Source: an uncultured Eubacterium sp. (GTDB taxonomy: Bacteria; Bacillota_A; Clostridia; Lachnospirales; Lachnospiraceae). From it: 24,517 nucleotides of DNA. Shown here piece after piece: positions 12,635 through 24,338 of the stretch. Both the position numbers and the translations under genes were made by a program. Each line of letters opens with the position of its first letter. The stretch's first letter is position 1. The stretch is from NCBI GenBank assembly GCA_948759685.1, contig CAQBGY010000017.1, positions 1 through 24,517 on the forward strand, read 5' to 3'. The notes below the pieces were generated by a model. It did no database searches. It saw only the letters and a program-made list of their open reading frames with translations, and was not told the DNA's origin.

Positions 12635-12701
12635 AATCAGAGGATTATGAAAATGTGGTAAATGTGTTTTAAGCAAAAGAGATAATAATATTTCGGTTGT
12701 A

Positions 12702-14255
12702 ATGAAAAGTATGGGAAGGAAAGAACAAGGCGGTTTACATAAAGTGTTTAACAAGAATGATATTTTAGAAGTTGAAATTATAGATCAGGGAACAACAGGA
12801 GAGGGCATAGGTAAGATAGAGGGCTATGCCCTCTTTGTGAAAGATACGGTAATAGGTGATGTGGCACGTGTAAAGATTATGAAGGCAAAGAAAAATTATG
12901 CTTTTGCAAAGTTGGAAGAGGTTATGAAACCATCACCCTATCGTGTTGAACCGATATGTCCAAAAGCCAGTAGTTGCGGAGGCTGTCAGTTACAGGCAAT
13001 GAATTATCAGCAGCAGCTAAAGTTTAAAGAGGATAAGGTATATAACAATATTAAACGAATTGGTGGTATTGCAGAGTTTGAGATGAAGCCTATTATGGGT
13101 ATGGAAGAACTATGCCTGAAAGGAAAAGAAGAGAATGGCCCGTTTCATTACAGAAATAAAGCACAGTTTCCGGTAGGATGTAACCGGGATGGTGAGATAG
13201 TGAGCGGTTTTTATGCAGGGAGAACCCATTCTATTGTGGAGATAGATTCCTGTGCATTGGGAATGCAGAGGGGTGTAAATGTGGAGTCAGATTATTTTGC
13301 TGGTGCAGGCGTTGAGGCGGACGAAGATATTGTGTCGGACGGAGCAGGGCAGAAAGAAGTGATGTTGGATGTGAATGCATGTGTAATGAAATTGGTAAAA
13401 GCATTTATGGAAGATAGAGGAATTGAGCCTTATGATGAGAATAGTCATAAAGGGTTGATTCGGCATGTGTTAATCCGTATGGGCGCAAAGACCGGGCAGA
13501 TCATGGTGTGTGTGGTTATTAATGGAGAGAAACTACCATATGCTCAGGAGTTGGTGGAGCGTTTATTAACAATTTCGGGAATGAGCGATATTTCTATTAA
13601 CATTAATAAAGAAAAAAATAATGTGATTCTGGGAAAGAAGGTTGTAAGTTTATATGGTCCGGGATATATTGAGGATTATATCGGTGATGTGAAGTTTCGG
13701 ATTTCTCCACTGTCATTCTTTCAGGTAAATCCGACACAGACGGAAAAGCTGTATGGAAAGGCTTTGGAGTATGCAGGGCTGGCAGGCAGTGAGACGGTAT
13801 GGGATTTGTACTGTGGAATCGGAAGTATTTCCTTGTTTCTTGCAAGGTCGGCGAAGAAGGTCATTGGTGTGGAGATTGTGCCGGAGGCGATACGGGATGC
13901 GAGAATCAATGCAGAAATTAATGGGATGGAGAATGCAGAGTTTCTGGTAGGGGCAGCGGAAGAGGTTGTACCGAAGTATTTTGAAGAACATCCGGGAGAG
14001 GCAGAGTGCAGACCGGATGTGATTGTGGTCGACCCGCCAAGAAAGGGTTGCGATGAAACACTGCTGAAAACTATGGTGGAGATGGCACCGGAACGTATTG
14101 TATATGTGAGCTGTGATAGTGCTACGCTGGCGAGGGATTTGAAGTGGCTAGAAGGCAATGGATATAAGGTGAAGGAAGTGACACCGTGTGATATGTTTGG
14201 GCAGACAGTGCATACAGAGGTCGTGTGTTTGCTAAATAGATGCAATATGAATTAG
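12702..14255 (+). CDS. rlmD: 23S rRNA (uracil-5-)-methyltransferase, RlmD/RlmCD (RumA) family
   Basis: 517 residues, somewhat longer than RumA. TRAM RNA-binding domain ~15-75. Iron-sulphur cysteines C86, C92, C95 (CPKASSCGGCQ) and C184 (IDSCALG). SAM-binding motif VWDLYCGIGSISLFLA, motif VVDPPRKGCDE, and the catalytic cysteine in VYVSCDSATLARDL. It makes 5-methyluridine in 23S rRNA; the Gram-positive RlmCD type modifies two sites. Two acidic stretches (~131-147 and ~195-222) look inserted relative to the compact enzymes. The start is uncertain: no good ribosome site precedes the ATGs at 12702 or 12711, and a GTG at 12744 is also possible because the TRAM domain begins just after it. It lies 67 bp after yhaM, possibly co-transcribed. 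Confidence 0.92.
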   Translation: MKSMGRKEQGGLHKVFNKNDILEVEIIDQGTTGEGIGKIEGYALFVKDTVIGDVARVKIMKAKKNYAFAKLEEVMKPSPYRVEPICPKASSCGGCQLQAMNYQQQLKFKEDKVYNNIKRIGGIAEFEMKPIMGMEELCLKGKEENGPFHYRNKAQFPVGCNRDGEIVSGFYAGRTHSIVEIDSCALGMQRGVNVESDYFAGAGVEADEDIVSDGAGQKEVMLDVNACVMKLVKAFMEDRGIEPYDENSHKGLIRHVLIRMGAKTGQIMVCVVINGEKLPYAQELVERLLTISGMSDISININKEKNNVILGKKVVSLYGPGYIEDYIGDVKFRISPLSFFQVNPTQTEKLYGKALEYAGLAGSETVWDLYCGIGSISLFLARSAKKVIGVEIVPEAIRDARINAEINGMENAEFLVGAAEEVVPKYFEEHPGEAECRPDVIVVDPPRKGCDETLLKTMVEMAPERIVYVSCDSATLARDLKWLEGNGYKVKEVTPCDMFGQTVHTEVVCLLNRCNMN

Positions 14256-14334: not shown

Positions 14335-14372
14335 AAAATGGTTTAATATTTATGAAAGGAGAAGTGTTCATC

Positions 14373-15419
14373 TTGGCAAAAAAGAAAAATGAAATAACAA
14401 TTCGTTCAAGTGCAGCAGAGTATCTTACCTATGTTGCTTCTGTGGGAGAACAAGAAGATAGCATCGAGATGCGTTATGAAGATGAGAATATATGGCTGAC
14501 ACAAAAAATGATGGCAGTACTTTATGATGTAAGTGTTGCGGCAATTAGCCAGCATATTAAAAAAGTTTATGACGATTCGGAATTAGAGCCGGAAGCAACT
14601 ATTAAGAAATACTTAACAGTTCAAACTGAGGGTTCGCGCCAAGTTAGTAGGGAAACAAATCATTACAACTTGCAGATGATTATAGCGGTTGGCTTTAAGG
14701 TAAACAATGAGCGGGCAGTCCAATTTCGTAAATGGGCAAATGGTATTGTGAAAGACTACACAATTAAAGGTTGGGTTCTTGATGACGAGCGACTGAAGAA
14801 TGGTGGTTCAGTACTGACTGTTGAATATTTTGACCGCTTGCTGGAACAAATTCGAGAAATCCGTTTGTCGGAAAGGAGATTTTATCAGAAAATTACTGAT
14901 ATTTATGCTACGGCATTGGATTATGACAGAACTGCAAAGACAACAAAACAATTTTTTGCAAAGGTTCAGAATAAAATGCATTATGCGGTGCACGGACATA
15001 CGGCGGCCGAATTGATATATGAGAGAGCTGATGCGGAAAAACCACATATGGGTCTTACCACCTGGGAAAATGCTCCAGAAGGTAAGATTATAAAAAGTGA
15101 TGTAAGTATTGCAAAAAATTATCTGAGTGAACAGGAGTTACGTTCTCTTGAAAGAATTGTGTCTGCTTATCTCGATTTGGCAGAAGACCGAGCCGAAAGA
15201 CATATACCAATGACTATGGAAGATTGGAGCAAACGTCTTGACTTATTTTTAATGGCTGACGAACGAGAAGTGTTGCAGGATGCCGGAAAGATAACTGCTG
15301 AAATAGCCAAAGCTAAAGCAGAAACGGAATTTGAAAAATATCGTATTGTTCAGGATAAAATTTTTATGTCCGATTATGATAAGTTTTTATTAGAATTAGA
15401 GGAAAGTGCTAAGAAGTAA
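14373..15419 (+). CDS. RhuM family protein (COG3943 type)
   Basis: 348 residues from a TTG start. The frame also has an ATG at 14352, but no ribosome site precedes it, whereas AAAGGAG falls 11 nt before the TTG, giving (M)AKKKNEITIRSS. Residues ~30-130 hold the RhuM domain with a DNA-binding-like helix pair (IWLTQKMMAVLYDVSVAAISQHIKK split over two turns) and NLQMIIAVGFKVNNERA followed by FRKWANGIVKDY. The C-terminal half (~170-340) is helical. RhuM was named from Salmonella pathogenicity island 3. Homologues sit in genomic islands, prophages and beside restriction systems, but the molecular function is not established. A hairpin with 6-bp arms follows the stop. Context suggests acquired DNA. 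Confidence 0.85.
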   Translation: MAKKKNEITIRSSAAEYLTYVASVGEQEDSIEMRYEDENIWLTQKMMAVLYDVSVAAISQHIKKVYDDSELEPEATIKKYLTVQTEGSRQVSRETNHYNLQMIIAVGFKVNNERAVQFRKWANGIVKDYTIKGWVLDDERLKNGGSVLTVEYFDRLLEQIREIRLSERRFYQKITDIYATALDYDRTAKTTKQFFAKVQNKMHYAVHGHTAAELIYERADAEKPHMGLTTWENAPEGKIIKSDVSIAKNYLSEQELRSLERIVSAYLDLAEDRAERHIPMTMEDWSKRLDLFLMADEREVLQDAGKITAEIAKAKAETEFEKYRIVQDKIFMSDYDKFLLELEESAKK

Positions 15420-17179: not shown

Positions 17180-17208
17180 TTGACAAACATATTCTACAAA
17201 TGTAGAAT
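17180..17208 (+). promoter_or_regulatory. Strong promoter of the sensor-protease/repressor operon
   Basis: TTGACA (17180-17185), exactly 17 bp, TAGAAT (17203-17208): a perfect -35 and a five-of-six -10. A BlaI-like palindrome covers the spacer's second half and the whole -10 box, so a bound repressor would block polymerase. Confidence 0.85.
17191..17208. promoter_or_regulatory. BlaI/MecI-type operator 1
   Basis: Perfect palindrome: ATTCTACA, two central bases AA, TGTAGAAT. The TACA-N2-TGTA core is the recognition pattern of the BlaI/MecI family. It overlaps the -10 element of the promoter upstream of the M56 gene. Confidence 0.8.
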
Positions 17209-17216
17209 AAAGTTAA

Positions 17217-17234
17217 GTTTTACATTTGTAGAAT
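17217..17234. promoter_or_regulatory. BlaI/MecI-type operator 2
   Basis: Core TACA-TT-TGTA (17221-17230) is perfect. The right flank GAAT matches operator 1, the left flank GTTT does not. It is centred 26 bp after operator 1, in the probable early transcribed region, as in bla and mec promoters that carry paired operators. Confidence 0.7.
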
Positions 17235-17290
17235 ATCGTTGTCAACAATTATCAGATTTATTGAAAATCTTAAAGAAAGGGGAGTATAAG

Positions 17291-20200
17291 ATGAATGAAT
17301 TTGTAGGAAATGTATTGCTGACAAGCGTTATATGTGCGGTTTTAATTATTCTGATATTATGCATATCACCATTTTTAAAACGATATACAAAGAAATGGAG
17401 ATATATTGCGTTTATTTTAATTGCAATAAGATTGATGATTCCTATACCGATTTTTTCTTTTGCCAATGGCTTGATGATACCGGTATATGATGGAGAGATG
17501 CAAAAGGAATTCCCAATTAGTAATGTTAAGAATGAGAATATAGATGTTGCGCATCCGGAAATAAATGCGATTAATGGCACGAATGAAATAAATGGGATAA
17601 GTAGTAATAATGTCCAAAATTCAGTAAATAACGTATCAAATGTGAGAGAAAATACTGATACAAATATGCACAATAATGTAAATTTTCGAAATGAAAATAA
17701 CAAAAGTAGAACGAATAGCCATGAGAAAAATGTAAAAGGACAAGATGCAGAAGGACTATTAGAAAAAAGTATAAACTGGGATATTATGTATAATACTGCT
17801 TTCGTGATATGGTTGGCTGGAATCTTATTTTTGTCAACATATTATATAGTTCTATATCTTTATTATTGTAAGAATCTTAAGAGATGGAGTAGTGAAATTA
17901 CAGAGGAAAGAACATTAAATATTTTTGATAAAGTACAAAAAGAACTAAATATTAAAACAAAAATTAAGCTGAGGAAGTGTAAGAAAATAAGTACTCCGAT
18001 GATTCTGGGAATTGTAAGACCAACAGTTCTGCTGCCGGAAGAAAGTTTTACAGATGACAGTTTGAAATATATATTCACACATGAGTTGATACATCAAAAG
18101 AATCATCATATGGTATTTAAATTATTATTTGCAGTAGCCAGATGTATACATTGGTTTAATCCGTTTGTACATATCATGGAAAAGAAAGCATATAAAGACA
18201 TGGAATTGTTATGCGATGATCAGGTTGTGGAAGAGCTGGAGTTTTGTAAACGAATACAGTATAACGAAACACTTCTGGAAATCGCGAAAAAAGAATCTGA
18301 ACAAAAAACAAACAGTGGATTATTTACTTTTGGATTTGTACAAAAGACAAGTAGTTTGAAAGAGAGAATGAAGAATATTATGATTATGGATAAAAGGAAA
18401 AAAGGATATTTGATTATTGCAGTTGTACTCATTGCAGTAATAATGAGCAGTTGCTTAATCAGTTGTGATAATAATAGTAAAGTAAAAATAAAAAATTATG
18501 ATGCTGAGGAAAGTAATGCGGCAGTACAATGGAGAGATGCTTATGCAGAATTTTTGAAATCTTTATATGTGAAAAGTGAAGATACAGATAAGAGTTTTGA
18601 ATATGTAGTAAGGGATATGGATAACAATGGTGTTCCGGAATTAGTTTTATTGAATAACGAAATGAAAGTTACAGTCTATACATATATTACAGAGGTGAAA
18701 AAAATTGGAAGTATTGATTTTGGAACAGCGACAACACAGTTTTTCTATACAACAGAGCCGGTTTATTCAGGAATAATATACTGTCATGAAGGAGGAGGCT
18801 TGGAGCATTATGGATATTTGAGATTTGAAAATGAAAAGATAACCAGAGAGGAATTGTGGAATGAAGATTATTCGGGAATATCAAAAGAGCTAGGGAAAAA
18901 TAGGGATAAGATAGAAGAAGTATCAGATGATTCAACATTAATAGAAGTGGTAAAGGAGTCATGTAAGCAAGAACTTGATTTGCACTTTATACTTTTAAAT
19001 ACCACGGATATCAGTGAACTAAAAACAATATTAAGTGGAGGAAATGTCTATTGGTCATCAAAAGGCAATGTATATAATGGAATCTTTTCAGGCGAGGAAA
19101 TGGGGAATGAAGATTTTATAGAATGTACAGCGCAATCGGAGATTCGAGGTTTAAAAACAAAAGATAATGAAACTTTTTATAAAATTTCTTTGAGTACAAC
19201 AAAAGAAGTTGGAAAAGAAAAGGAGTTAATAGGATACTTTTTAGTTGATAAGGAAAATATTTATCAATTATATCAGGGAAAAGGCGAGGGATTAAGTAAA
19301 AAGGAATTTATTGAAAATAGTAATTGTGTATGTTCTGATACAGGGTGGTCAACGAAATCAGCAGATGTTATTCATAAACTAGAAATCAAAGGAAAGATCG
19401 CAAAATACACATATCATAATAGAAAGGTTGAAACAGGATTTTATGAAACAATTGTATGGCAGAAGGGTAGAGGCATTATAAGTTATAGAAGGGGGGATGG
19501 TGCAGAAAGAGATTCAATAGGGTTAGAATATTCTACGACGGAAAATGGAGGCATAGAAAAATACAAAGATGTTATAGCAAAGCATACAGATAAAGAAATT
19601 CATAAAATTTTTGTGGAAGATTTTGAAGGAAATGGTGAGGAGTCAGCCTTTGCTTTAACAAGGAAAAAACTCAATGAAGAGGAAGGAGACTATGAACTTT
19701 GGTTTGTAAATGGAGAAGAGTGTACAAATTTAGTACCATCAATTATTGCAACATCTAATAGTGACATAGAGCTTTTACGACAAGATAATCATATTCATAT
19801 TTTGTTTAATTCTGTTAAAGTGAGATTAAATAATGATTCAAAAGCAAGGATATATTGTGTTAAAAACGGAAAGGCAGTAAAGTTATTTTCTTTAAAAGGC
19901 ATGAATCTTGAGGCAATAGATGACATTTTGCTTGGTGATACAATACAATATACGCAATATGATCCTGATGTGAAAGGATGGATGGGTGCTTCTTATTTGC
20001 ATTATCAATTTTATTGGAATAATAACACAAAAAAATATGAGGAATATGCAGCAAAAAAAATGACGCAAGAGGAGTTTCATCAGTTGTCCGGGTCGAAAAA
20101 AATTTTAAAAGCAATAAAAAATGGATTGAAAGAGGATTATAGCGAGAAGTATATTGAATCAAAAATACAATGGAGTTATATCAATAGAGATAATGGAACG

Positions 20201-20365
20201 ATAGATATCAATTTGATTGTGCCATTTAAAAATGGTGAGAAAAGAAAGCTCCATATGACTGCAACAAGAAAAGACAATAAGATTGTAGATGGAGACTATT
20301 TGTATTTGGCAGAAGGAAACAAAGAAACCTCAATTTTAAAATCTTGGGAATATTTGGAACAATAA
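17291..20365 (+). CDS. BlaR1-like M56 membrane metalloprotease with a large non-PBP outer sensor domain
   Basis: 1024 residues from the ATG at 17291, which follows AAAGGGGAG; an earlier in-frame start at 17180 would lie inside the promoter. Membrane helices at ~4-26 and ~37-56, an Asn-rich loop (~78-148), helix ~167-192, then the M56 zinc protease: H264-E265-x2-H268 and E305 (zinc ligands), WFNPFVH (~289), SLKERMKNI (~355). A fourth helix (~372-391) leads to ~630 outer residues. These carry calcium-site-like D442-x-D444-x-N446-G and D777-x-E779-x-N781-G motifs. No penicilloyl-serine domain (SxxK/SxN/KTG set) was found. By family knowledge, ligand binding outside would trigger the protease and inactivate the repressor encoded next. 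The ligand is unknown. Gene order (sensor first) is reversed from bla/mec. Confidence 0.88.
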   Translation: MNEFVGNVLLTSVICAVLIILILCISPFLKRYTKKWRYIAFILIAIRLMIPIPIFSFANGLMIPVYDGEMQKEFPISNVKNENIDVAHPEINAINGTNEINGISSNNVQNSVNNVSNVRENTDTNMHNNVNFRNENNKSRTNSHEKNVKGQDAEGLLEKSINWDIMYNTAFVIWLAGILFLSTYYIVLYLYYCKNLKRWSSEITEERTLNIFDKVQKELNIKTKIKLRKCKKISTPMILGIVRPTVLLPEESFTDDSLKYIFTHELIHQKNHHMVFKLLFAVARCIHWFNPFVHIMEKKAYKDMELLCDDQVVEELEFCKRIQYNETLLEIAKKESEQKTNSGLFTFGFVQKTSSLKERMKNIMIMDKRKKGYLIIAVVLIAVIMSSCLISCDNNSKVKIKNYDAEESNAAVQWRDAYAEFLKSLYVKSEDTDKSFEYVVRDMDNNGVPELVLLNNEMKVTVYTYITEVKKIGSIDFGTATTQFFYTTEPVYSGIIYCHEGGGLEHYGYLRFENEKITREELWNEDYSGISKELGKNRDKIEEVSDDSTLIEVVKESCKQELDLHFILLNTTDISELKTILSGGNVYWSSKGNVYNGIFSGEEMGNEDFIECTAQSEIRGLKTKDNETFYKISLSTTKEVGKEKELIGYFLVDKENIYQLYQGKGEGLSKKEFIENSNCVCSDTGWSTKSADVIHKLEIKGKIAKYTYHNRKVETGFYETIVWQKGRGIISYRRGDGAERDSIGLEYSTTENGGIEKYKDVIAKHTDKEIHKIFVEDFEGNGEESAFALTRKKLNEEEGDYELWFVNGEECTNLVPSIIATSNSDIELLRQDNHIHILFNSVKVRLNNDSKARIYCVKNGKAVKLFSLKGMNLEAIDDILLGDTIQYTQYDPDVKGWMGASYLHYQFYWNNNTKKYEEYAAKKMTQEEFHQLSGSKKILKAIKNGLKEDYSEKYIESKIQWSYINRDNGTIDINLIVPFKNGEKRKLHMTATRKDNKIVDGDYLYLAEGNKETSILKSWEYLEQ

Positions 20366-20386: not shown

Positions 20387-20764
20387 ATGAAAAGATTACC
20401 AGACTCAGAATTAGAAATTATGATTGCAATATGGGAATTAAATAAAGAAGTAACGAGAACAGAAATAGAAGAAAAGCTGGATAGGGACAAAAAACTTTCT
20501 CCAACGACAATATTATCGCTATTATCAAGGTTGGAAAAAAAGGAGTTTGTGAGTATTCGCAAAGAGGGAAAGAATAATGTTTATAAGGCGCTGGTAAATG
20601 AAGAAGATTATATGAATGCAGAAAGTAAAACAGTATTAGAAAAGCTTTATAAAAATTCACTTACAAATTTTATGATGGCGTTGTATGCAGATAAAAAGCC
20701 GACGAAAAAGCAGATTGATGAACTTCAGGAATTTTTAGATGATTTAAAAGAGCAGCAACATTAA
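20387..20764 (+). CDS. BlaI/MecI-family transcriptional repressor
   Basis: 125 residues, normal for the family. Winged helix-turn-helix ~4-72: LPDSELEIMIAIWEL, TRTEIEEKL, SPTTILSLLSRLEKKEFV and the wing around RKEGKNNVYKAL. C-terminal dimerisation helices ~75-125. The dipeptide N94-F95 (SLTNFMMAL) sits where S. aureus BlaI and MecI are cut (N101-F102). It lies 21 bp after the protease gene with ribosome site AAAGGA, so the two are co-transcribed. It probably represses its own operon at the two palindromes at 17191-17234 and is released when the protease is activated. Confidence 0.93.
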   Translation: MKRLPDSELEIMIAIWELNKEVTRTEIEEKLDRDKKLSPTTILSLLSRLEKKEFVSIRKEGKNNVYKALVNEEDYMNAESKTVLEKLYKNSLTNFMMALYADKKPTKKQIDELQEFLDDLKEQQH

Positions 20765-20822: not shown

Positions 20823-20895
20823 ATATAACGGAAAAGATTTTACATTCAACAAGAAAATAGCAAGAAGAAACATACAGAAGCAATAGGAGGCAATT

Positions 20896-22302
20896 ATGGG
20901 TGGATTTTTCGGCGTAGCATCAAAGGAAGACTGTGTATTTGATTTGTTTTTCGGAATAGATTATCATTCACACTTGGGAACAAGACGTGGCGGAATGGCA
21001 GTTTTAGGAGAGAAGGGATTTGACAGAGCAATTCATAATATAGAAAATTCTCCATTTCGAACAAAGTTTGATAAAGACTTTCAGGAGATGGAAGGAAATC
21101 TGGGAATCGGATGTATTTCTGATTATGAATCCCAGCCATTGATTATCCGTTCTATTCATGGTACATACGCCATTACAACGGTTAGTAAGATTAACAACAT
21201 GGACGAGCTGACACAGGATTTATATAAGCATGGGCATACTCATTTTCAGGAAATGAGTGGTGGAGATATTAATGCTACCGAGTTAGTTGCCACATTAATT
21301 GACCAGAAGGATAATCTGATAGATGGTATTAATTATGCATTGGATAAAGTTGATGGTTCACTGTCCTTATTGCTTATGAATGAAAATGGAATCTATGCAG
21401 CACGTGATAAGCAAGGAAGAACTCCGATTACGATAGGAAGAAAAGAGGGTTCGTTCTGTGCAAGTTTTGAGAATTTTGCCTATAAAAATCTGGGATATAC
21501 AGATTACAAAGAGTTAGGACCGGGAGAGATTGTCGTAATGACACCAAAGAATTGTATTACATTGTCTGATGCTAACAGTGATATGAAGATTTGTACATTC
21601 CTTTGGGTTTATTATGGATATACAGCCAGCTCTTATGAGGGAGTTAACGTTGAGCAGATGAGATATAACTGTGGAGCAAAGATGGCACAGCGTGATAACG
21701 TTCAGCCGGATATCGTTGCGGGCGTTCCGGATTCGGGAATCGCACATGCAGTGGGTTATGCAAATGAGTCAGGAATACCATTCTCCAGACCATTCATCAA
21801 ATATACTCCGACATGGCCTCGTTCATTTATGCCTACTGTACAGAGCAAGAGAGATTTGATTGCAAAGATGAAACTGCTGGCAGTCGAAGAGTTAATCAGA
21901 GATAAAAGTCTGTTATTAATTGACGATTCTATCGTACGTGGAACACAGTTAAGAGAAACAACAGAGTTTTTATATAAGAGCGGTGCAAAAGAGGTTCATA
22001 TCAGACCGGCATGTCCACCATTGTTATACGGATGTAAATATTTAAACTTCTCCCGTTCCACTTCAGAGATGGATTTAATTACCCGACGTGTAATCGCTAG
22101 ATTGGAAAATGGTAATGTAACAGACGAAGTATTGCAGGAATATGTGGATCCGGAATCAGAGAAGTATGAGAAAATGGTTGAAGAGATTCGAAAAGAATTA
22201 AACTTTACATCTCTTAGATTTAACAGACTAGATGATATGTTAGATGCAGTAGGCATTGATAAGTGTAAACTTTGCACATACTGCTGGGATGGAAAAGAAT
22301 AA
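20896..22302 (+). CDS. PurF-like amidophosphoribosyltransferase paralogue lacking the glutaminase nucleophile
   Basis: 468 residues, aligned by eye end to end with PurF. N-terminal Ntn-hydrolase-like domain ~1-225, C-terminal phosphoribosyltransferase domain ~230-450. The PRPP motif is intact (LLLIDDSIVRGT, 339-350), and VPDSGIAHAVGYA and the likely Fe-S cysteines C233, C380, C457/C460 are present. In the glutaminase half, PurF's MCGIFG start is MGGFFG here (Gly in place of the nucleophilic Cys), the RYST region is SDYES (~75-79), and the NG of HNGNL is replaced (TTVSKINN, ~94-101). PurF makes phosphoribosylamine from PRPP and glutamine; this protein should be unable to use glutamine. It stands alone, with its own promoter and terminator, no other pur gene nearby, and a strong ribosome site AGGAGG. 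An ammonia-dependent enzyme, PRPP sensor or regulator are all possible. Confidence 0.88.
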   Translation: MGGFFGVASKEDCVFDLFFGIDYHSHLGTRRGGMAVLGEKGFDRAIHNIENSPFRTKFDKDFQEMEGNLGIGCISDYESQPLIIRSIHGTYAITTVSKINNMDELTQDLYKHGHTHFQEMSGGDINATELVATLIDQKDNLIDGINYALDKVDGSLSLLLMNENGIYAARDKQGRTPITIGRKEGSFCASFENFAYKNLGYTDYKELGPGEIVVMTPKNCITLSDANSDMKICTFLWVYYGYTASSYEGVNVEQMRYNCGAKMAQRDNVQPDIVAGVPDSGIAHAVGYANESGIPFSRPFIKYTPTWPRSFMPTVQSKRDLIAKMKLLAVEELIRDKSLLLIDDSIVRGTQLRETTEFLYKSGAKEVHIRPACPPLLYGCKYLNFSRSTSEMDLITRRVIARLENGNVTDEVLQEYVDPESEKYEKMVEEIRKELNFTSLRFNRLDDMLDAVGIDKCKLCTYCWDGKE

Positions 22303-22346: not shown

Positions 22347-22379
22347 AAGGTTGGAAGTTTCTTTCAACCTTATATTTTT
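22347..22379 (+). terminator. Intrinsic terminator of the PurF-like gene
   Basis: An 11-bp stem, AAGGTTGGAAG (22347-22357) with CTTTCAACCTT (22361-22371), one G-T pair, TTT loop, followed by ATATTTTT. It lies 44 bp after the stop. Confidence 0.9.
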
Positions 22380-22400: not shown

Positions 22401-24338
22401 ATGAAAAACACATGGATTAGAAAGATATCTATAATATTGGCAATCGCTTTGATCATACAGTCAGCGATGGGATTAAAACTATTTTCTATAACTGTAAAGG
22501 CGGGAGATAAAAGTGTGGAGGAACAGACGGCAGGAGTAGAATTTATCGCTGATGACGGAGTACCGGGCGAAGAAGAAACCTCTGAAACAGAGACAACAGG
22601 GGAAGGAGATACAGAAGAATCTACCACGGAAGAACCTACTACTGAGCCTCCAACAGAACCACCGACCACAGAAGAGCCTACCACACCAGATTATGAGATT
22701 ATTGATGAGGTATATAAAGTAAAAAATGATGTATTGATAGAGTATTTGGGAAACAAGAAAGATAAAACGATTACCAGTCTTGTAATTCCGGCAAAAATAA
22801 CAACAATAAAGGCAAATGTATTTGAAAAGTGCCAATACATAAAAAAAGTAACATTCGAAGATGGAAGCAAGCTATCTAAGATAGAAAAATATGCGTTCAA
22901 AGATTGCGGCGCTTTAAAAACTGTATCTTTACCGAAGGGAATAAAAACAATTGGATATAAAGCGTTTGGATTGTGTACATCTTTAGAAAAGTTTACAATT
23001 CCCGGTTCTGTAACTTATGGAAATCAGGTTTTTGGAAGCAGTGGAACTGTTAAGACAGTGACTTTTGGAAGTGGAATAAAAACCATTCCGGAAAATATCT
23101 TGAAAAATGCAGGGAGTGTGGAAAGTGTAACAATTCCAAGCAAAGTAACCAGCATAGGAAAAAATGCATTTTATAACTGTATGTCATTAAAAAAAGTATC
23201 GTTGCCAAGTACAGTAACAGTATTAAATGCATCAGCATTTTATAATTGTAAAGCGATGACGAAATTTACAATGTCAAAAAATGTAATAACGATTGGAAAA
23301 AATGTATTTAAAAATTGTACAAATTTAAAATCAATTACATTATATAAAAACATTAAAAGTATTGGTTCGGGTGCCTTTTCGGGGGATAAGAATATTGTGT
23401 TGAAAGTTTATGCAAATTCAAAAGGAAAGGCATATGCCAGAGCCAATAAAATAAAGTGGGACTATACGGATTCAGAGAAAAAAAGAAGAGCTGCAAATCA
23501 GGTGGTTTATGATGAGTATATAAAGAAGATAAAAGAAAAAGATAAAACAAAATATAAACTGAAATATTTGTCAGACTATGTTCCGCAAGGGAATTGTTTA
23601 ATAGGAAAATACCTGGTGGTATCTATGTACCATAAGTCATTATCAAAACGTTCAGTATTAGTTTTGTATAATAAAAGTACAGGAAAATTTGCCAAGACCA
23701 TTGTATTGCCATATCGGGATCATGTGGGAGCTGTTACAAATGTTAAGGGAAGATTGGTAGTAAGTCTTAATAATATTTCAGTTTATGATTATTTGGCGGT
23801 GTATAATTATAGTAAAATAAAAAAGGTAAAACATGGAAAGGTTTTAAAACCTGCTTACAGGGTTCAGGTGTCAGGCAGTGCCGATTTTGCAGCGTTTGAT
23901 GGAACTTACTTCTGGGCAGGACGGAGTGCAAATACATCATATGCAACAATGCAGGGATATAAAGTAAAGGTAAAAAAGAAAAAATTGGTATTTACCAGAA
24001 AATACAGTTATTATATTCCGGCGAACACGCAAGGGCTTGTTGTGAAGAAAATAAGTAAGACAAATCGCAGGTTTATATTTTCCCAGTCGTATGGGAGATT
24101 GAATAATTCTGCATTGATTACATATACAAAGAAAATCAGTAAGTCCGGTGGACTGGGAACACCAAAGAAAACATTGACGATGCCGTCTATGCTGGAAGGA
24201 ATTGTACTTAGCAGTGGCAAGTATTTGTATATGGTTTATGAGTCCGCAGCAGGATTGTATTGTGGGAATCCGGACAATACCAGTGAGATACAGATAAAAT
24301 ATGTGTGCAGGATAAAAGCGAATAAATTAGGAATATAG
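22401..24338 (+). CDS. Secreted leucine-rich-repeat (LRR_5, BspA-type) surface protein
   Basis: 645 residues. N-terminal signal peptide: NTWIRK, then a hydrophobic stretch (~9-30), cleavage probably near VKA (~33). Residues ~55-95 are a Thr/Glu/Pro-rich linker (TTEEPTTEPPTEPPTT). About ten LRR_5 repeats follow (~105-345) on the pattern SIGKNAFYNCMSLKKVSLP, typical of BspA-like proteins of gut and oral bacteria, where the family often mediates adhesion. The C-terminal ~275 residues (after KKRRAANQVVYDEY) are rich in Tyr, Lys and beta-strand patterns (LVVSMYHKSL, YFWAGRSANTSY) and may be a beta-propeller-like domain; I do not know this part. No LPXTG anchor is seen, so it is released or held non-covalently. 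Ribosome site CAGGAG lies upstream of the ATG. Confidence 0.88.
   Translation: MKNTWIRKISIILAIALIIQSAMGLKLFSITVKAGDKSVEEQTAGVEFIADDGVPGEEETSETETTGEGDTEESTTEEPTTEPPTEPPTTEEPTTPDYEIIDEVYKVKNDVLIEYLGNKKDKTITSLVIPAKITTIKANVFEKCQYIKKVTFEDGSKLSKIEKYAFKDCGALKTVSLPKGIKTIGYKAFGLCTSLEKFTIPGSVTYGNQVFGSSGTVKTVTFGSGIKTIPENILKNAGSVESVTIPSKVTSIGKNAFYNCMSLKKVSLPSTVTVLNASAFYNCKAMTKFTMSKNVITIGKNVFKNCTNLKSITLYKNIKSIGSGAFSGDKNIVLKVYANSKGKAYARANKIKWDYTDSEKKRRAANQVVYDEYIKKIKEKDKTKYKLKYLSDYVPQGNCLIGKYLVVSMYHKSLSKRSVLVLYNKSTGKFAKTIVLPYRDHVGAVTNVKGRLVVSLNNISVYDYLAVYNYSKIKKVKHGKVLKPAYRVQVSGSADFAAFDGTYFWAGRSANTSYATMQGYKVKVKKKKLVFTRKYSYYIPANTQGLVVKKISKTNRRFIFSQSYGRLNNSALITYTKKISKSGGLGTPKKTLTMPSMLEGIVLSSGKYLYMVYESAAGLYCGNPDNTSEIQIKYVCRIKANKLGI

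Follow-up and report, generated by a model that had tools for sequence, protein, structure and literature searches.

What does a relative of PurF do once its glutaminase half can no longer work? The question is raised by an open reading frame (ORF) in a 24,517-nucleotide stretch of DNA from an uncultured Eubacterium sp. (contig CAQBGY010000017.1 of assembly GCA_948759685.1; the whole stretch is called the window here). A preliminary description, made from the letters alone, had taken this ORF for a PurF paralog with a dead glutaminase half, an intact site for phosphoribosyl pyrophosphate (PRPP) and a different job, for which it offered ammonia-dependent synthesis, the sensing of PRPP or nucleotides, or partnership with the true PurF. 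Our analysis makes it likely that the paralog is an ammonia-using PRPP aminotransferase that makes phosphoribosylamine, working alongside PurF in some species and in place of PurF in others; 'different job' is misleading, as the step is probably the same and the nitrogen donor different. That the paralog performs the PurF step of the pathway is well supported, and we infer that it does so as an active catalyst with ammonia as the direct donor.

Glutaminase and phosphoribosyltransferase halves of the paralog

The ORF at 20896-22302 of the plus strand is real and full length, encoding a PurF-like protein of 468 amino acids that scored 189 bits against TIGR01134, under the curated cut-off of 350. 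The protein is modeled with a PurF fold: the best Foldseek match of its AlphaFold2 model (predicted local distance difference test score, 89.6) was B. subtilis PurF (1ao0), a structure with which the preliminary description had proposed a comparison. PurF entries stood apart in the structure searches by matching along the entire length, as opposed to the mainly N-terminal matches of GlmS-type and other amidotransferases. Residues were compared in two alignments, one of 131 distinct paralogs (the window's included) with 31 canonical PurFs from the family of the nearest genome and B. subtilis PurF, the other, wider one of 49 diverse paralogs with four canonical PurFs. Counts out of 49 in this section refer to the latter. 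Canonical residues are numbered as in mature B. subtilis PurF, with the functions in the glutamine pocket and loops that we take them to have. The gene and its elements, all on the plus strand, are as follows.

20896-22302 (+): ORF of the PurF paralog, 468 amino acids, Pfam GATase_7 and Pribosyltran; putative ammonia-type PRPP aminotransferase
20899-20901 (+): Gly2, replacing catalytic Cys1; no Cys in 49/49 diverse paralogs
21115-21120 (+): Ile74-Ser75 junction, site of the deleted RYST/RYAT glutamine-binding segment; gap in 49/49
21181-21186 (+): Val96-Ser97, replacing the Asn-Gly pair; Asn lost in 49/49
21259-21279 (+): GGDINAT, replacing the glutamine-binding Asp127 segment; alignment gapped here
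21592-21594 (+): Cys233, iron-sulfur (Fe-S) ligand position; Cys in 49/49
21721-21738 (+): GVPDSG pyrophosphate loop, from the alignments
21799-21873 (+): flexible loop Lys302-Lys326, with the family motif K-Y-T-P-T-W-P-R-S-F-M; two Lys and Arg kept, Trp307 added
21922-21945 (+): DDSIVRGT PRPP loop; invariant in 49/49
22033-22035 (+): Cys380, Fe-S ligand position, followed by an insert of about 20-30 residues specific to the family
22273-22284 (+): Cys460-x-x-Cys463, Fe-S ligand pair; CxxC near the C terminus in 49/49

The glutamine site is lost in the window protein and in its family relatives. As had been described from the start MGG, the N-terminal Cys is gone: the Cys1 column holds Gly in 93%, Ser in 5% and a gap in 2% of the 131 distinct paralogs, and Gly in 45, Ser in four and Cys in none of the 49 diverse ones. 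The Arg-containing RYST segment has likewise disappeared, not by the change to SDYES that had been suggested but by deletion, as the Arg72 column is a gap in 49/49. Arg26 is Leu throughout (49/49), and Asn102 is replaced by Val, Ile, Ala or Thr in every case (49/49). The earlier claim that the whole Asn-Gly pair is lost thus stands for Asn. For its partner, Gly103, it stands in the window protein, which has Ser, and fails as a family trait because Gly is kept in 39/49 relatives. No paralog has Asp in the Asp127 column (0/49), a column that is approximate because the stretch is gapped. The PRPP and pyrophosphate loops are preserved. The Ser of the pyrophosphate loop, Lys305, Arg311 and Lys328 are invariant in 49/49 paralogs, and the DDSIVRGT loop and Fe-S cysteines were rightly described as kept; all four cysteines (window residues 233, 380, 460 and 463) occur in 49/49, which predicts an Fe-S cluster.

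Distribution of the paralog and genomes without PurF

Relatives were drawn from a species-genome scan (the best 80 loci of 584 candidate relatives), from a protein search in which at least 7998 candidates were scored, and from surveys of the nearest genome's family (Lachnospiraceae, 150 genomes), class (Clostridia, 393 genomes) and phylum (299 genomes), mostly drafts. The paralog is present in over 200 surveyed genomes, nearly always as a single copy: in 108 of the 150 family genomes (one copy each), in 115 of the 393 class genomes (52-79% identity, the nearest genome itself excepted) and in 18 of the 299 phylum genomes, five of which are class members already counted. One genome of the phylum survey (G726) has two copies. 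Identity among fetched loci ranges from 51 to 99.6%, the latter being the copy in the nearest genome. That the protein is conserved, as the preliminary description held, is borne out by well over 100 relatives that share its traits; the few named proteins among the matches listed are called 'amidophosphoribosyltransferase'. Many titles of the best 80 loci (of 584) name gut or rumen samples.

Canonical PurFs beside the paralog in fetched loci are 26-32% identical to it, and E. coli PurF 25%. In a tree of 58 rows, a branch with 100/100 support sets the 34 paralogs apart from the other rows as a clade with a long stem, in a bootstrap that is not fully settled and with a root that is merely drawn. 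In 16 genomes compared for both, the paralog is on average 73% identical to its counterpart in the nearest genome and PurF 72%, so the paralog is kept about as tightly as PurF. The nearest genome (G001) encodes a canonical PurF separately (511 bits), and the organism of the window therefore probably has both proteins, the second purF that the preliminary description had asked for. Some genomes of the family (G019, G058, G081, G109, G115, G121, G826, G827 and G834) each have two PurF matches over the family cut-off.

PurF over the cut-off was missing from 17 of the 150 family genomes. One of these (G049) has a PurF split in two, so 16 lack PurF. The paralog is present in 15 of these 16, all 15 with purD and purM; the sixteenth (G085) has no PurF, no paralog, no purM match and no purD over the cut-off. 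In the class, PurF exceeded the cut-off in 309 of 393 genomes. We took 85 as PurF-less, ten by elimination, and searched 80 of them for purD, leaving out five with a partial or under-cut-off PurF (G198, G326, G370, G429 and G492). Two candidates were dropped because they have PurF after all, G289 as pieces in one frame and G221 as fragments on two contigs. The paralog occurs without PurF in 34 class genomes under 18 family labels, 32 of which have purD, versus two with purD over the cut-off among the 44 genomes with neither protein (Fisher p = 4e-17, uncorrected for shared ancestry).

Family and class together give 49 PurF-less carriers of the paralog (15 + 34), 90-100% complete, with purD, tested in all, present in 47; purM was tested in 15. 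These 49 genomes were rechecked at E <= 1e-12 with scoring of all candidates, and no PurF or PurF fragment emerged. The matches were the paralog (in two pieces in G456) and frames of 606-764 amino acids, most of them spanning the N-terminal half, which by their length may be GlmS-like. Assembly gaps do not explain the absence of PurF, as G360 consists of one contig at 99%, G531 of two contigs and G059 of five at 100%. Among 23 further genomes reached through loci of the species scan, PurF over the cut-off is missing from two, the genomes of L045 and L079. In the genus g163, both genes occur in seven genomes, G321 has the paralog alone and G285 (one contig) has PurF alone, a reciprocal loss as expected if both proteins can do the same job. 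Within the family, a tendency to keep the paralog more often after PurF loss (15/16 versus 93/134, Fisher p = 0.04) was weak, and we do not rely on it.

The window locus and pur operons in other families

The reading frame of the window gene is secure. Because an in-frame TAG lies at 20884-20886, four codons ahead of the ATG, an upstream start that would supply a Cys is ruled out. A sequencing error is excluded as well, given that well over 100 relatives show the same traits and that the copy in the nearest genome is 99.6% identical; both had been named as findings that would overturn the description. Of the signals claimed, full length and a ribosome site (AGGAGG) hold. Promoter consensus sites are at chance level (7 versus 7.0 expected), which leaves the claimed promoter without support, and of the claimed terminator there is one stem, a weak call. 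No Rfam riboswitch matched at the window. Signals and neighboring genes are listed below.

20885-20890 (+): ribosome-binding site AGGAGG, read from the sequence, 5 nt 5′ of the ATG
22347-22371 (+): terminator-like stem-loop followed by a T run; 1 found versus 0.7 expected by shuffling, weak
14352-15419: RhuM-family protein (Pfam Virulence_RhuM, 383 bits)
17180-20365: BlaR1-type M56 peptidase protein, 1061 amino acids, just upstream of the paralog
20387-20764: penicillinase-repressor (BlaI) type regulator, after the BlaR1-type gene and just upstream of the paralog
22401-24338 (+): BspA-type leucine-rich-repeat protein, directly 3′ of the paralog

The statement that the gene is not in a pur operon is correct for the window and incorrect for relatives in other families. 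The preliminary description had also asked whether Cys-less forms make their own clade with conserved neighbors; they do make such a clade, with pur genes as neighbors in several other families. No widely shared neighbor was found in the window's family, where 121 loci were examined: the top cluster holds one fixed position in eight of the 118 anchored loci, and one neighbor cluster lies within seven genes of the paralog in 31 loci, at scattered positions and on both strands. For the class, 40 loci were fetched, 11 picked for purD or PurF nearby and 29 unpicked, and 38 gave an anchor.

In several of these other families, the paralog fills the purF slot of pur operons. The operon of L213, from a genome in which no PurF was found, runs purE, paralog, purM, purN, a gene like inosine monophosphate (IMP) cyclohydrolase, 5-aminoimidazole-4-carboxamide ribonucleotide (AICAR) formyltransferase, purD and purL, with intergenic gaps of -7 to 27 bases. 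The same arrangement recurs in whole or large part in L214-L217, L219 and L230, and in L249, whose genome has a separate PurF. Genes of the purE, purC or purM clusters adjoin the paralog or lie two genes off in nine of the 29 unpicked loci (L226, L228-L230, L243, L244, L248, L249 and L252); the cluster names come from family scans of L213 and L214 members, the purC-like one scoring under its cut-off. The order is paralog, PurF, purM in L248 and L252; PurF lies just upstream of the paralog in L220 and L221, and L223 reads PurF, purB, paralog. Seven loci were scanned for riboswitches: L213, L214, L216 and L217 have a ZMP/ZTP riboswitch upstream of the operon, and L215, L248 and L249 do not. Together with the PurF-less genomes that keep purD, this operon slot supports the ammonia-dependent synthesis that the preliminary description had offered as one role.

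Two further features of these loci were observed. In L213, AICAR formyltransferase (677 bits) and an IMP cyclohydrolase of PurO-like type (65 bits, under the family cut-off of 150) are encoded separately, at L213:11932-12657 and 12664-13848, in place of the expected bifunctional PurH, an archaeal-like arrangement; members of these clusters are also present at sister loci. In several distant lineages the paralog adjoins carB, encoding the large subunit of carbamoyl-phosphate synthase. It follows the paralog at L001:9432-12653 (+), L153:10906-14124 (+), L161:10689-13913 (+) and L180:5612-8836 (-), and precedes it at L237:6091-9333 (+) and L246:7150-10377 (+), with the family confirmed in L237, L001 and L153 and spacings of 24-28 bases in L001, L237 and L246. 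No carA was recognized by eye beside these carB genes, and no scan was aimed at it. CarB may be paired with the paralog as a second enzyme of the ammonia/glutamine kind, perhaps an ammonia-fed carbamoyl-phosphate synthase.

Competing explanations and known systems

If the paralog is an ammonia-using PRPP aminotransferase, its intact phosphoribosyltransferase half would bind PRPP-Mg, and free NH3 would displace pyrophosphate to give 5-phosphoribosylamine, which would pass to PurD; the dead N-terminal domain would be retained for structure and possibly for regulation. The donor is likely to be free ammonia, because glutamine hydrolysis is impossible by the known mechanism and no travelling glutaminase gene was seen. 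In organisms that also have PurF, such as that of the nearest genome, the paralog and PurF would make up an ammonia/glutamine pair comparable to AsnA and AsnB, the unrelated ammonia-only and glutamine-using enzymes for one reaction. Where PurF has been lost, the paralog would be the only entry to the purine pathway. Guts, the habitat of many such bacteria, are rich in ammonia. With somewhat less assurance, we favor a broader picture in which a Clostridia-wide ammonia-only PurF family has repeatedly displaced glutamine-dependent PurF, uncoupling the committed purine step from glutamine in ammonia-rich guts, with the dead glutaminase as a fixed scaffold and in parallel to crenarchaeal PurF′.

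Several observations weigh against the ammonia-using aminotransferase. The gene stands alone in the window and in the window's family, so the operon argument comes from other families. No Rfam riboswitch was found in 20 short relatives of the window's family, and none in six longer loci of PurF-less genomes, whose only matches were tRNA and the DUF3800-XI RNA. Two genomes (G398 and G502) have purD with neither protein and G186 has a partial purD match, and the paralog lacks purD in two of the 49 PurF-less carriers (G265, in 250 contigs, and G442). Some role beside PurF is needed, because 93 of the 134 family genomes with PurF also keep the paralog. The flexible loop, which in PurF closes over PRPP, is rewritten from the canonical K-N-x-Y-V-G-R-T-F-I, the columns of canonical Asn and Tyr being mostly Thr, and the residue right after the PRPP loop is Gln in 49/49 aligned paralogs in place of canonical Thr; both changes leave room for altered chemistry.

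These changes, the solitary gene of the window's family and the separate clade on its long stem would also suit a phosphoribosyltransferase for another amine or pathway (e.g., a cofactor or a salvage base), with PurF-less genomes obtaining phosphoribosylamine otherwise. We consider this very unlikely, given the purF slot in pur operons, the riboswitch above four of them and the way in which purD tracks the paralog once PurF is absent (32/34 versus 2/44). A noncatalytic pseudoenzyme that regulates or braces canonical PurF, itself an allosteric enzyme, or that senses PRPP or nucleotides would explain the dead glutaminase half, the direct adjacency of PurF in L220, L221 (PurF first), L248 and L252 (paralog first) and the frequent co-occurrence of the two proteins. 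Its retention in 49 genomes without detected PurF, 47 with purD, and its purF slot elsewhere speak against such a main job, which had been among the roles first proposed. So does the invariance of the PRPP loop, the pyrophosphate-loop Ser, two Lys and one Arg, which goes beyond a partner's needs, although a PRPP sensor might require them; we regard this reading as quite unlikely.

Another rival keeps the step and changes the supply: a separate, docking glutaminase would hand over ammonia, so that the reaction would still be glutamine-fed. Many amidotransferases have separate glutaminase subunits, and the glutaminase-type domain is predicted to persist as a whole fold and shows good conservation, which would suit a docking surface. 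None of the eight genes scanned in the L213 pur operon, however, encodes an extra glutaminase (PurL carries its own), and the 118 window-family loci share no widespread neighbor, in a study without a genome-wide partner search. We judge a docking glutaminase unlikely. A decaying pseudogene or annotation error, suggested by the loss of several catalytic residues, is refuted by conservation and has a negligible chance of being right: none of the copies listed has internal stops, the gene persists in 108 of 150 family genomes, its mean identity over the 16 genomes compared is about that of PurF, and its PRPP loop is invariant in 49/49 aligned paralogs.

The ammonia-using aminotransferase would matter because the first purine step is usually treated as glutamine-dependent. 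Should the paralog use only ammonia, the nitrogen donor in metabolic models of common gut bacteria is wrong, and glutamine-analog inhibitors of PurF would miss such enzymes. We found no published report of a clostridial Cys-less PurF family in the literature searched, which left out most subscription papers; in a paper on Roseburia (PMC7478625), none of the passages on 'purine' and 'auxotroph' concerns PurF.

The paralog resembles canonical PurF (B. subtilis 1ao0, E. coli 1ecf; TIGR01134) in its two-domain fold, its PRPP and pyrophosphate loops and, in several families, its pur-operon place, and the B. subtilis type in its Fe-S cysteines. It differs from canonical PurF in lacking Cys1, Arg26, the Arg72 segment, Asn102 and Asp127, in its 25-32% identity and score below the TIGR01134 cut-off, in the rewritten flexible loop and in the insert after Cys380. 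Unlike GlmS and AsnB, it has a phosphoribosyltransferase as its C-terminal half (Pfam Pribosyltran, structure matches) and no sugar isomerase or synthetase domain, and unlike AsnA, by analogy, the ammonia form here keeps a dead glutaminase domain. A close parallel is PurF′ of crenarchaea, which Brown et al. (2011) (PMC3261824) describe as Cys-less, adjoining purF and pur genes, and proposed as an ammonia-dependent PRPP aminotransferase that is to be tested. The same paper cites E. coli PurF with its Cys replaced by Ala or Ser, which no longer uses glutamine and still uses ammonia; those are laboratory point mutants, whereas the paralog is a natural family. By that published description, the clostridial protein shares with PurF′ the missing Cys and, in some relatives though not at the window, a place in pur operons. 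It departs from PurF′ in its distribution: every crenarchaeon examined in that account has both PurF and PurF′, whereas 49 clostridial genomes have the Cys-less form alone, with no PurF found. If these forms use only ammonia, the idea proposed for PurF′ becomes testable in species without a confounding PurF.
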